Positions 1,136-6,712 of a DNA stretch of 64,000 nucleotides are shown piece after piece; position 1 is the first letter of the stretch, and every line of letters starts with the position of its first letter. The DNA comes from Desulfocarbo indianensis (GTDB lineage Bacteria > Desulfobacterota > Desulfarculia > Desulfarculales > Desulfarculaceae): contig LBMP01000007.1 of the NCBI GenBank assembly GCA_001184205.1, positions 124,001 to 188,000 of the forward strand, read 5' to 3'. The notes beneath the pieces are model-generated. The model ran no database searches and was not told where the DNA came from. It was given only the letters and a program-made list of their open reading frames with translations. Position numbers and translations under genes: made by a program.

Positions 1136-2056
1136 AAAAGGCTTTACACTAAGGCAAGTGAATAGAATAACAATCGCGATTGTGCCAATGTTTTATTAAT
1201 GTTGCTACGAAATATCAATCTGGCATGTTATTTGTAAAGTTATATTGAATTGAAAGCGCGCAAAAACACGACCGCTATGCAGGTCTAACCCAGCGGTTTT
1301 AAATCCCATTATGCTGAAAAGATTAGTCTGGCTGAAATTGCAAGGCACTTATTAGGTCAAGAGGTGTCTTTTGTCAAAAGCAGGCAGCGTTAAGGGCGCT
1401 GAAACGAGGCTTTACCTGTGATCATCTGAAAAGCCAGGCGCGCAGCCAGGCAAAGGCAAATCAGAATCGAAGAGGTGAAAAACCGTAGGTCTTTGGTAGG
1501 CGATGGGGTGGCGGGTCTTCGCGTGAGAGCTTACCTCCTTGCCGGCGGCGGGCGCTCTGCTTATTAAGCTAGCCACGTGATTACTCGACGCTTTTTGTTA
1601 TGTGACTCCGCAAACTCCGCAGCTTATAAATAGCTATTGCCAATGGTAGTTGCTTGCTACTATATTATTTGGGTCAATTAAATATAGCGCTTACGCTTTA
1701 CAGCCAGGATTAAGCCTGATTTTGACATTCGCCGCATCTTCATCCCAAAGCTTGCCCGGGCAGTCTTTTGTCGTGGTAGTGAGCACTGAATAGATTACTT
1801 GTTTGAAGAAGTTTTATAATTATCACGGGAATTTTTCAGTGCGATAGACGCCCATGCGGTCAAGGCATATCAAGTGTGCTTTATGCCTTCCTGGCTTGGA
1901 TAAATTATGCTGCTTACGGTTTGAAGCGCGCTTGAGTATGCTGCTTTTCATGCCACCTATTAAATATTATCAAGACATTATTTACTCGGCTGTAAATAGT
2001 TAAGGCAGCAGTTATATTATTACGGCATGAATTCATTGATGCATGGAGAAAAGGTT

Positions 2057-4294
2057 ATGGTGCCTTTGCCACCGGCCAATAGCGCGTCGCAGTATTCACC
2101 CTTTAGCCAAGACCGCAAGGACATAGCTATTTTCGTGGAAGGGCTGCCCGGCATGGCCCTGGGGTGCCTCATGGTTGATCAGAACAGAAAGATGCTATGG
2201 CATAAGCCTTTTGTTAAAGGCTGGCCATTTCTAAACAAAAAACCGCAGCATTGTTACAATTTACTGGGCAGCAACACCCCTTGCGAGACCTGCGCCGCAA
2301 TCGATGTCCTGCGTACGGGACGCCCCTCCAGTTGTGAGCGCGAGACTATTCAGCCTGATGGCGGCACGATTTATTATCATCTGGTGGCATCTCCCGTAAA
2401 AGACGAGAGCCAAAACATCATAGGCGTGGTGGAAGTGATCCAAGATATATCCAGTCAGAGCACCTACAAGGATAACTACAAAGATATAATAAATTTTAAC
2501 TATAACATAATCTATAACGCGCCGGTTGCCATCTTTACCCTGAACCGCCAAGGCATAATAACCAGCACAAACCCCGCCCATTGCCAAATTGCAGGCAATC
2601 CGCCCTTGGCTGGCATTTTGGGAATGGATTGGCTAAATTCCCGCTCGGTTCTCGATTCTGGTTTGGATTATTATCTGAAAAAAGGTCTCTCCGGCGAAAG
2701 TTTTGAAGTGGTCGATGTTCATTATCGCACCAATATTACGGGCATAGACCGATTCATCACCCTGCGGGGCGTGCCGCTCAGGACGAACGATGGCAGCATT
2801 GAAGGGCTTCTTTGCATATTGGAGGACACCACAGAAAAAACCAATAACTTAATGAGGGTCGAAAAGCTTAAGCGATACAATGAGAACATAATTCAATCCA
2901 TCAGCAATGGCATAATGGTGCTGGATAATAATTTTTCCATAAAAATTTGGAATAACTTTATGGAAAACATATTTGGCATCCAAGCTAAATATGTTCTGGG
3001 ACGCTCGGCGATCAACTTCCTGCCGTCTTTGGGGCTGGATATCGACATAAAAAGCATTTTCGACGCCACCCAGGAAGGAAACGTCCTATATTTCAAAAAC
3101 GTTGACATTAATTGTAAAAACAAGGGATTCATTTCGGTTAATTACAAAGTAATGCCCCTCATAAACGATGAAAATGCCCAATCTGGCATTATCGTATTCT
3201 TTGAGGACATCACCCAAAGTAAAAAGACCGAGATTCAATACAATACCTTATTCCAGAATGCCAATGACGGTATCGTGGTTACCGACTCGCAAGGGCGATT
3301 TTTGTCGGCAAATGCCAAATTTCTGAACTTGATAAATTTAACTTGGTTGGAGTTGCAGGCCATAGGCATCGAAGACCTGATTTTCGCTGAGGATGTTCAT
3401 GTTTTCCAAAATTACTTACTGAACACCGAAAAAGACGGCGATGTTCTGCCGCTTGAAATAAGACTTAGCTCTAAAAACCATGATCCCATACCGGTAGAGA
3501 TAAATTTATCCAGGGTTATCGTTCAAAATGAAAATGTCGCCTTTCAATTGATCGTCCGCGATATAAGAGAAAGGCTGAAGCTTGAAAAGCAGCTTTTCCG
3601 CGCGAGCAAGCTGTCGGCCTTGGGAGAGCTGGCCGCCGGAGTGGCTCATGAGATTAACAATCCTTTAGCCACCATAGCGGGTTACTCGGAAGAGCTTTTA
3701 GATCTGTTAAGCACCTGGCAGACAGACGTAATCAAACCGCATCTGGACGAACTTAAAGAAATTATCAACATGATTAAAACCCAATCGTACAGGTGCAAAA
3801 GCATAACCAATAATCTACTGGATTTCGCCAGAATCAATGCGCCGACCTATTCAGATGTGGATATCAATGAAATTATATATTCCGTGTTGAGCCTGTCAGC
3901 CTATATAACCTATGAAAACAAAAATCAGGTGAAGCTCGATCTGATGGAGGATATACCACTTCTCAAGATCGACTATTCCCACGCGCAACAAGTTATGCTC
4001 AATATCTTGAACAACGCCTTCGACGCCATAGAAGACGGCGGCGATATCACTATTTCATCAAAGGAGCATAATAATTGTATCTTAGTGATATTCAAAGATA
4101 CTGGCATGGGCATTGATAAAAAGAATATGGAGCGAATTTTCGATCCATTTTTCACCACCAAGTCACCTGACAAGGGAACCGGACTGGGGTTATCGATTTC
4201 CTACCGTATCATGGAGCGATTGGGGGGGAGTATAGACGTAAAAAGTAAAAAAGGCGCTGGATCCACCTTTGAACTACGCTTCCCTAAGGAATAA
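2057..4294 (+). CDS. Multi-PAS sensor histidine kinase
   Basis: A sensor kinase of about 745 residues with no obvious membrane segment, so probably cytoplasmic. The N-terminal PAS-like domain holds a CX9CX2C cluster (C66, C76, C79) that could bind a metal, Fe-S cluster or haem. Three more PAS domains follow, then a HisKA domain whose phospho-accepting His lies in HEINNPL at about residue 531, then an HATPase domain with an N box (NILNNAFDAI) and G boxes (DTGMGI, GTGLGLSI). I prefer the ATG at 2057, eight bases after GGAG, over the in-frame ATG at 2027, which lacks a ribosome binding site. The stop lies two bases before the sigma-54 regulator start, so the two form an operon and probably a cognate pair. 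Base composition is AT-rich relative to the region after 5.64 kb. Confidence 0.9.
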   Translation: MVPLPPANSASQYSPFSQDRKDIAIFVEGLPGMALGCLMVDQNRKMLWHKPFVKGWPFLNKKPQHCYNLLGSNTPCETCAAIDVLRTGRPSSCERETIQPDGGTIYYHLVASPVKDESQNIIGVVEVIQDISSQSTYKDNYKDIINFNYNIIYNAPVAIFTLNRQGIITSTNPAHCQIAGNPPLAGILGMDWLNSRSVLDSGLDYYLKKGLSGESFEVVDVHYRTNITGIDRFITLRGVPLRTNDGSIEGLLCILEDTTEKTNNLMRVEKLKRYNENIIQSISNGIMVLDNNFSIKIWNNFMENIFGIQAKYVLGRSAINFLPSLGLDIDIKSIFDATQEGNVLYFKNVDINCKNKGFISVNYKVMPLINDENAQSGIIVFFEDITQSKKTEIQYNTLFQNANDGIVVTDSQGRFLSANAKFLNLINLTWLELQAIGIEDLIFAEDVHVFQNYLLNTEKDGDVLPLEIRLSSKNHDPIPVEINLSRVIVQNENVAFQLIVRDIRERLKLEKQLFRASKLSALGELAAGVAHEINNPLATIAGYSEELLDLLSTWQTDVIKPHLDELKEIINMIKTQSYRCKSITNNLLDFARINAPTYSDVDINEIIYSVLSLSAYITYENKNQVKLDLMEDIPLLKIDYSHAQQVMLNILNNAFDAIEDGGDITISSKEHNNCILVIFKDTGMGIDKKNMERIFDPFFTTKSPDKGTGLGLSISYRIMERLGGSIDVKSKKGAGSTFELRFPKE

Positions 4295-4296
4295 CG

Positions 4297-5637
4297 ATGA
4301 CTATTGATCAGAGAGAAAAGCGGGTACTGATTCTGGAAGACGAAACGCCTCTACGGGAGCTGTATAAAAGGCGGCTCAAGAGGCTGGGCTATTTCGTCGA
4401 CGCCACCTCCAACGCGGATGACGCCATTAAACTGCTCGGCAATAATTACCATGCGGCGCTGGTCGATGTCCGCATGCCGGGGATGACCGGCATAGCGTTT
4501 TTGCAGAAGGTAAAAGAGCAAGACAGCTGCATGGAAATTATTATTATAACCGCTTACGGCAGCATAGAATCCGCGGTGAAAGCCATGAAGGCCGGCGCCT
4601 ATGATTATCTGACAAAGCCTTGCCACTTGCCGGAACTTGAGATGCTGGTGGCCAAGGCGTGCGAGAAAAGCGAACTGCGCACTGAAAATACCATTTTAAA
4701 AGAGACGCTGCACAACAAAGAAACCCGCATCAAGATGGTGTATCGCAGCCCGAAAATGGTTAAGATAATAAATGACGTCAAGAAGGTGGCCATCACCGAC
4801 AGCCCCGTGATAATCGAAGGCGAAAGCGGCACCGGCAAAGAGATTGTCGCCGGTTATATTCACAGCTTGAGCAATAGAAACAGCGGTTCGTTTATCGCCA
4901 TAAACTGTGCGAACTTGCATGATAATCTGGTTGAGAACGAGCTTTTTGGCCATGAACGCGGATCATACACCGGCGCGGATCAAAAACGCCGCGGTTTGAT
5001 GGAATTGGCCGATAAAGGCACCCTTTTTATCGACGAGATCGGCGAGATGCCGCCTTTGGCCCAGGCCAAACTATTGCGGGTTATGGAAACCAAGACTTTC
5101 CGCCGCATAGGCGGCAGCCGTGAGATCCATTCCGACGCCAGAATAATTGCCGCCACCAACAGGAATTTATCGGAAGAAGTCAAGAAAGGTAATTTCAGGG
5201 CTGATTTGTTTTACCGCTTGAACGTGGTCAGGCTGCAAATACCGCCATTGCGCGACCGGCCCGAGGATATTCCGGAACTTGTCGATCATTTTTTGGAGTT
5301 AAAGTGTAAAACCCTTAATACCTTTAAAACCATCAAGCCGGAAGCCAAACAGCTTTTCCTGGAATATAGGTGGCCGGGCAATGTAAGGGAATTGGCCAAT
5401 ATCGTAGAGCGGGCGATCATACTGTCTTCCGGAACAGCCATTTCCATTGAAGACCTTCCCTTTGGAAACAATAACCAGGTTCAACCCGACCTCGTATCCC
5501 TGGTGGAGATGGAGCGTAATTACATAGAGCAAGTGCTGCAACGGACCAATGGCAACAAAACCAAGGCCGCCAAGATATTAGGCGTCAGCGTCAGAAACCT
5601 GTATCGAAAAATCAACCAAATGCAAAATATGGGTTGA
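4297..5637 (+). CDS. NtrC-family sigma-54-dependent response regulator
   Basis: 446 residues in the standard order. An N-terminal receiver carries the phospho-acceptor D57 in LVDVRMPG and a conserved Lys in LTKPCH. A central AAA+ domain has Walker A GESGTGKE, a sigma-54 contact loop GSYTGA at 222-227 (a variant of GAFTGA) and Walker B TLFIDEIGE. A Fis-type helix-turn-helix (NKTKAAKILGVSVRNLYRKI) closes the protein. It activates transcription from -24/-12 promoters after phosphorylation, presumably by the kinase encoded just upstream. The AAGGA just before the kinase stop serves as its ribosome binding site. The only strong sigma-54 promoter I found in the window is at 964-979, in front of the radical SAM gene. 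Confidence 0.93.
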   Translation: MTIDQREKRVLILEDETPLRELYKRRLKRLGYFVDATSNADDAIKLLGNNYHAALVDVRMPGMTGIAFLQKVKEQDSCMEIIIITAYGSIESAVKAMKAGAYDYLTKPCHLPELEMLVAKACEKSELRTENTILKETLHNKETRIKMVYRSPKMVKIINDVKKVAITDSPVIIEGESGTGKEIVAGYIHSLSNRNSGSFIAINCANLHDNLVENELFGHERGSYTGADQKRRGLMELADKGTLFIDEIGEMPPLAQAKLLRVMETKTFRRIGGSREIHSDARIIAATNRNLSEEVKKGNFRADLFYRLNVVRLQIPPLRDRPEDIPELVDHFLELKCKTLNTFKTIKPEAKQLFLEYRWPGNVRELANIVERAIILSSGTAISIEDLPFGNNNQVQPDLVSLVEMERNYIEQVLQRTNGNKTKAAKILGVSVRNLYRKINQMQNMG

Positions 5638-5644
5638 TAAATGG

Positions 5645-6271
5645 CTAAATCGTGAGCGCCGCGCCGGCGTTTTGACCGCGCGCCAGGCCGGCCAAGCTCT
5701 CGTAAGGCTGCGCGCCCACCAGGCTGCGGCCTTCCAGGCTGAAGGTGGGAACCGCCCGGATTCCCCGCTCGCGGGAATAGCTCCAGTCGGCGTCCACGGC
5801 CTGGACGTAGGCTCCGCTCCTCAAGGCCGCCAAGGCCTTATCCGGCTGCAAGTCCGCCTGCCGGGAGACTTCCCGCAACACGTCTTCATCATATAAATTC
5901 AGGCCTTGGGCAAAGTAGGCGCGGAAAGCGGCCAGGTGGAATTCTTCGCCGCGGCCCTGCTCTTCGGCCCATTTGCCCAATTCCTGGGCCTTACGCGAAT
6001 TATAGGTCATGGTCCTTACCCCGAAGGCAAGGCCCAGTTCTTCAGCCACCTTGGCCAAATGAGCCATGGCGGCCTCGATGTTGAAATCCTGGCCCGCGAA
6101 AAGTTCTTCCAGGCGCATGCCCTCGGGCGGGACCTCGGGATGCAGGGGAAAGGCGATCCAACGGATGGCCAGGGAAAATTCGCTGCTGAGCTTGGCTACA
6201 CGGCCCGTGCTGAAATAACACCAGGGTCACATGTAATCCGAAAAAACCTCCAGCGCTCTCTTCGAATCCAC
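5645..6271 (-). CDS. DsbA/FrnE-like thiol oxidoreductase, selenoprotein (UGA = Sec15)
   Basis: A thioredoxin-fold DsbA-family (FrnE/HCCA-isomerase-like) protein of 208 residues if the in-frame TGA at 6229-6227 is read as selenocysteine. The GTG start at 6271 has AGGAG eight bases upstream. Codons 11-18 read SDYM-U-PWC, so Sec replaces the first Cys of the family's SD-x-x-CPWC motif. The remaining sequence continues the family in the same frame: WIAFPLHPEVPPEG, TYNSRKAQELGKW, and RGIRAVPTFSLEGRSLVGAQ with its cis-Pro. About 21 nt after the UGA is a small hairpin (CACG-GGC-CGTG) with G at the loop start, as in bacterial SECIS elements. Without readthrough only the part from Met52 could be made, without the active site. 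It is convergent with the sigma-54 regulator gene, 7 bases away. selA/B/C/D are not in the window. Confidence 0.82.
6196..6229 (-). promoter_or_regulatory. UGA codon and candidate SECIS hairpin
   Basis: The in-frame UGA (6229-6227) is followed on the minus strand by a hairpin with a 4-bp core stem (6209-6206 with 6202-6199), a GGC apical loop at 6205-6203 and an outer G-U pair. The loop lies about 21 nt from the UGA, within the window SelB requires. The stem is short, so the call rests mainly on the protein context. Confidence 0.5.
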
Positions 6272-6460
6272 GGCTGTTTCTCCTCTTGGCTTAAGCATTT
6301 TGCCACGGTCTTTTCCGGCAAGGCTAGAGGCGGAGCAGGGTCTTGTCAAATCGGCCGGGTGGTAACTCCCGCGCGCTTATGGCTTTGCCAGGGCAAGCGT
6401 AGGATTTATAATAAAAATATACCATACTAAACAATGGGGCAATAACGAAGGGAGAGCGCC

Positions 6461-6712
6461 ATGATTCAGCCCTTACCGCGCAGCGTCAATGATCCTGTCT
6501 GCGGAATGAGGCTCGAAAAAGGCGGGCAATATCTCCACCTGGATTTCAAGGGCCACCGTTTGTTTTTTTGCTGCGAGCCTTGCTTGGAAAAATTCATGGC
6601 CGACCCTAATTATTTTTTGAAACCCAAAGGCTGGTGGCGGCGCTATGTGGAGCGGCTGATTTCGAGCAACGCCAAGCAGTTCGGCGGAAAGAAACCTTCT
6701 TGCCATAAATAA
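6461..6712 (+). CDS. YHS-domain protein
   Basis: 83 residues. It carries the YHS/TRASH-type metal-binding signature: NDPVCGM at about 10-16, then FFCCEPCLEKF near 36-46, followed by a basic C-terminal tail ending in CHK. Such domains bind heavy metals and are found alone or fused to metal ATPases and oxygenases. A GGGAG stands before the ATG. It is divergent from the selenoprotein gene, and the spacer presumably holds both promoters. The specific metal and partner are unknown. Confidence 0.8.
   Translation: MIQPLPRSVNDPVCGMRLEKGGQYLHLDFKGHRLFFCCEPCLEKFMADPNYFLKPKGWWRRYVERLISSNAKQFGGKKPSCHK

Follow-up and report, generated by a model that had tools for sequence, protein, structure and literature searches.

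A predicted FrnE-type selenoprotein with a UPWC active site and a covarying SECIS-like hairpin in Desulfocarbo indianensis

Gene layout and family assignment

On the minus strand of the window (the whole stretch of 64,000 nucleotides of Desulfocarbo indianensis DNA analysed here), direct reading of the sequence gives a coding sequence of 208 residues when one in-frame TGA is read as selenocysteine (Sec) (Table 1). The protein around this codon reads VDSKRALEVFSDYM-U-PWCYF, with SDYM-U-PWC at the active site, and the TGA is the sole in-frame stop inside the gene, in which neither a frameshift nor a second stop is found. Upstream of the GTG the frame stays open back to a TAA at 6379-6377 and includes two other starts, ATG 6298 and TTG 6349; GTG 6271 is the presumed start codon, ATG 6298 being equally in frame. 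An earlier note on this DNA had claimed the GTG start with its ribosome binding site, and had also claimed that standard gene calling would truncate the protein and drop its active site. Both claims were borne out, the Shine-Dalgarno-like sequence being in place and the 157-residue open reading frame, which begins too late to include the active site or the first strand, being the only product callable under the standard code.

Table 1. Features of the selenoprotein gene, in window coordinates
Feature	Position	Strand	Remarks
Selenoprotein coding sequence	5645..6271	-	GTG start, 208 aa, TAG stop; PF01323 E=3.3e-31, D. radiodurans FrnE E=3.8e-22
GTG start codon	6271-6269	-	
Shine-Dalgarno-like AGAGGAG	6280..6286	-	8 nt spacing to GTG, read directly
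In-frame TGA, predicted Sec15	6227..6229	-	First catalytic residue of UPWC
Active-site motif U-P-W-C	6218..6229	-	Sec15-Pro-Trp-Cys18
SECIS-like hairpin GCACG-GGC-CGUGU	6198..6210	-	Family eight-pair register spans 6214-6194
Val174-Pro175, thioredoxin-fold cis-Pro loop	5747..5752	-	Pro175 invariant in family alignment; cis conformation presumed from fold
TAG stop codon	5647-5645	-	
Truncated 157-aa open reading frame, standard code	5645..6118	-	ATG at 6118

The predicted protein matches the DSBA domain (PF01323) with 109 bits against a curated cut-off of 25.6, and its UPWC site is the Sec version of the FrnE-type CP(W/F)C motif. Its likeness to the FrnE of Deinococcus radiodurans (DrFrnE) extends from the sequence to the active site, where the TGA lies opposite the first Cys of CPWC, and to the fold: an AlphaFold2 model in which Cys replaces Sec (pLDDT 93.6) found its best PDB matches in the DrFrnE structures 5cnw, 5co3 and 5cp1 (TM 0.87). 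DrFrnE belongs to a predicted cytoplasmic FrnE subfamily with CP(W/F)C and has a further C-terminal CxxxxC thought to regenerate it (PMC8945050). The selenoprotein, in contrast, has Sec instead of Cys at the first catalytic position and no C-terminal CxxxxC, U15 and C18 being accompanied by no other Cys in the 208 residues. The CxxxxC occurs in many but not all FrnE proteins and is not obligatory, FrnE of S. roseofulvus being one without it (PMC8945050). None of the NCBIfam models reached its own cut-off on the selenoprotein. Membership of the Rcas_1661 family of thioredoxin-like (seleno)lipoproteins (NF041057, DsbG-like), which also have UxxC and are weakly similar in the C-terminal part, was rejected at 40.2 bits against a cut-off of 190, with a match confined to residues 122-195; it is a different family.

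Conservation of the TGA column and of the downstream hairpin

A search of 60 related genomes located the gene in 17, the source genome included, and all 17 (16 besides the source genome) carry it in a TGA-bearing form, each with one or two in-frame TGA codons of which one falls at the motif. When 97 homologous loci from the related genomes and a genome collection, some of them near-copies, were read codon by codon, the column of Sec15 held TGA in 82 and TGC or TGT in 15, and no other codon. The named sources of these loci include Thermodesulfobacteriota, Nitrospirota, Planctomycetota, SAR324 and Pseudomonadota. Across 198 surveyed genomes of the phylum, 48 had a match, and the TGA lay within it in 40 (one of these matches being split in two pieces), while the 8 best matches without a stop all have Cys at the Sec column.

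Conservation as protein spans several phyla on both sides of the TGA in the alignment. Invariant family residues include D12, U/C15, P16, C18 and P175, and columns 15, 16 and 18 are invariant in alignment A1, which shows Sec as Cys. Between close pairs, most differences 3' of the TGA sit at third codon positions, and the downstream part is therefore under protein-level selection; the 14-15 codons 5' of the TGA are not enough for firm conclusions on selection. The earlier note had placed the TGA at the first catalytic Cys of the family, with both flanks continuing the family sequence, and had proposed an alignment with Cys homologues. This alignment, in which the 15 Cys loci share the column of the TGA, agrees with both claims.

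A hairpin with a G-starting loop about 21 nt 3' of the TGA had likewise been claimed, and it is present as GCACG-GGC-CGUGU, with a 3-nt loop beginning with G and 21 nt from the UGA to the loop. The published bSECIS geometry asks for a loop of 3-9 nt, a stem of at least 4 pairs, a G at the first or second loop position and a distance of 16-37 nt from the UGA (PMC13188914). The hairpin agrees with it in loop, stem and G position, and its spacing of 20-21 nt lies within the range. The energy rule of the same model (MFE at or below -7.5 kcal/mol) is another matter, the minimal hairpin alone reaching -4.3 kcal/mol and so falling short; longer stretches of the window give -5.8 to -10.6 kcal/mol, but as a fold other than the hairpin. 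Folded together by RNAalifold, the TGA set yielded an unstructured consensus, single-sequence z-scores were unremarkable, and an Rfam gathering scan of the window returned no match, hence no library SECIS model stands behind the hairpin.

The family register, which is ungapped from the TGA, pairs positions 16-23 with 29-36. Paired cells amounted to 87% over 76 distinct TGA sequences versus 55% in the Cys forms; within the TGA sequences, redealt 3' letters paired at 78 ± 0.7%, and a partner strand slid by 1-3 bases at 25-53%. Double-sided changes were counted in 50 cells against 14 ± 2.8 in shuffles, with 0 of 1000 shuffles as high, counts which are not to be read as probabilities since the shuffles ignore relatedness. 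The covarying pairs include 19-33 (A-T, T-A, G-C) and 21-31 (T-A, C-G), and in the Cys forms pairs 18-34 and 23-29 are never made. Overall, the in-register hairpin is formed by 80 of 82 TGA loci and by none of the 15 Cys loci. Its loop is CGGGC in 40 sequences and CGTGC in 16, which fits the G[G/U] rule of the bSECIS model. It is because of the covariation and the contrast with the Cys forms that the hairpin gains support as a SECIS: unconvincing if taken alone, it becomes with the family evidence a convincing candidate for a SECIS-like element. The SECIS prediction suggested in the earlier note thus ends with a hairpin that fits the rules of position, stem and loop and covaries across the TGA forms.

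These results bear on two other explanations of the TGA. The codon could be a real stop, the gene being either a decayed pseudogene or the source of a functional 157-residue protein begun at ATG 6118. An open reading frame with an ATG start does exist there, but the shortened form would have neither active site nor first strand, the protein is conserved on both sides of the TGA over several phyla, the gene holds no further stop or frameshift, and the SECIS-like hairpin is conserved, so that this explanation appears very improbable. Even less credit can be given to a sequencing or assembly error for TGC or TGT in an ordinary Cys-containing FrnE protein. The source genome is a draft of 333 contigs and Cys homologues do exist, but the TGA recurs across several phyla, in dozens of genomes sequenced independently of one another, always in one catalytic column, and is accompanied by a covarying hairpin that is missing from the Cys forms. 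For the family as a whole, an error is already refuted.

Selenocysteine machinery and proposed decoding

The source genome (98.65% complete) was found to hold tRNA-Sec (75.4 bits; anticodon tca by ARAGORN), selB (393 bits), selA (606 bits) and selD (376 bits). With the products of selA, selB, selC and selD, which the earlier note had named as the genes to look for, all encoded, the Sec machinery is present. Of the 17 genomes with the TGA, 15 yielded selA (partial in one of them), and the other two are 70-71% complete. A reading of the TGA as a residue other than Sec, for example Trp, through a code change or suppression would in principle yield a full-length protein, as would any UGA readthrough, but this can practically be dismissed, the aligned residue of near homologues being Cys and never Trp, and the genome having a complete Sec system with a tRNA-Sec of anticodon tca.

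The selD gene (L115, 1393-2439 on the minus strand; G000:C1:157070-157993) has an in-frame TGA of its own at the UxxK site (...KARAAGUAAKIG...) and represents an independent selenoprotein. A TGA in a molybdopterin oxidoreductase reading frame (L119) was not accepted as a further one, given contig gaps and an unclear frame.

Taken together, the TGA/Cys column, the hairpin, the machinery and the fold leave a sequence error, a pseudogene and a plain stop refuted or very unlikely. The gene product is almost certainly a FrnE-type protein of the DsbA/thioredoxin-fold superfamily, predicted to be cytoplasmic and to have Sec as its first catalytic residue, a reading made from sequence, namely from the open frame, the conservation of TGA or Cys in one column, the covariation of the hairpin, the genes for Sec insertion and the fold. 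The cytoplasmic location is predicted from a short N-terminus in which no signal peptide is seen. In the proposed decoding, the hairpin about 20 nt 3' of UGA 6229 would recruit SelB with Sec-tRNA(Sec), leading to the insertion of Sec at residue 15, and some ribosomes would probably terminate at this UGA. The most likely mechanism of the UPWC site is thiol/selenol-disulfide exchange, in which the selenolate of Sec15 would attack a substrate disulfide (or take up electrons), Cys18 would resolve the selenenyl-sulfide, and the enzyme would be regenerated by a cellular thiol reductant. Such an outside reductant is implied because there is no C-terminal CxxxxC like that of Deinococcus FrnE. A reductase rather than an oxidase direction is presumed, and the substrates and partner are presumptive as well.

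Relation to described selenoproteins and Sec/Cys history

COG2761 is presumably the FrnE group. It was under this heading that the 2005 Sargasso Sea survey (PMC1088965) filed DsbA-like UxxC selenoproteins, then a new family; DsbA-like Sec proteins appear again in surveys of 2006 and 2008, and the family is listed in the catalogues of 2022 and 2026 (for the latter, PMC13188914). Consequently, the selenoprotein reading of the earlier note is correct, but the family position which it had singled out as the interesting part belongs to a kind already described in 2005. The Sargasso Sea protein (COG2761 / PF01323, UxxC; PMC1088965) corresponds to 'DsbA-like protein form 1' of the 2026 catalogue (PMC13188914) and resembles the present one in its domain family, in having Sec at the head of the UxxC motif, in a hairpin 3' of the UGA and in widespread Cys homologues; going by published descriptions, the two do not differ in kind. 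The list of known selenoprotein families is unchanged by the finding. Modestly new are the clear hairpin covariation seen within this subfamily and the picture of a Sec-dominant group with repeated Sec/Cys changes. Under standard annotation, what remains of this gene and of its relatives is a fragment lacking the active site, so that a redox selenoprotein common among Desulfobacterota-type and other bacteria is easily overlooked; the hairpin and the TGA/Cys alignment would be enough for a correct annotation.

Sec predominates in the subfamily, as far as the sample of 198 genomes from the phylum goes (40 of the 48 genomes holding the gene), and at least 7 Sec/Cys changes were counted on a quick, rough tree rooted at the midpoint. 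Among the 15 Cys loci (in L087-L113, for example L087:3001-3573) there is a Rhodospirillales clade with CPWC, an altered following sequence GDNRVK and no hairpin, which the quick tree nests among Sec forms; it possibly represents a replacement of Sec by Cys. That Sec is old and Cys secondary throughout the subfamily, contrary to the usual view that Sec has recently replaced Cys in thiol redox families, is a tentative and rather doubtful proposal. A second Sec group with UPFC instead of UPWC, and with CPFC relatives, occurs in the same phylum (L031, L125-L127, L129, L131, L134 and L135).

Comparison of the gene neighbourhoods within 3 kb revealed no widely recurring gene family, only small clade-specific neighbours, and the context therefore points to no particular partner. 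In the window, a divergent small reading frame with a YHS domain (DPVCGM...; 6461-6712, plus strand) adjoins the selenoprotein gene and has no TGA in frame; YHS proteins feature in selenoprotein lists. On the other side, a PAS-domain histidine kinase and a sigma-54 response regulator form a pair at 2027-5637 on the plus strand, stopping 7 bases away from where the selenoprotein gene ends on the opposite strand.
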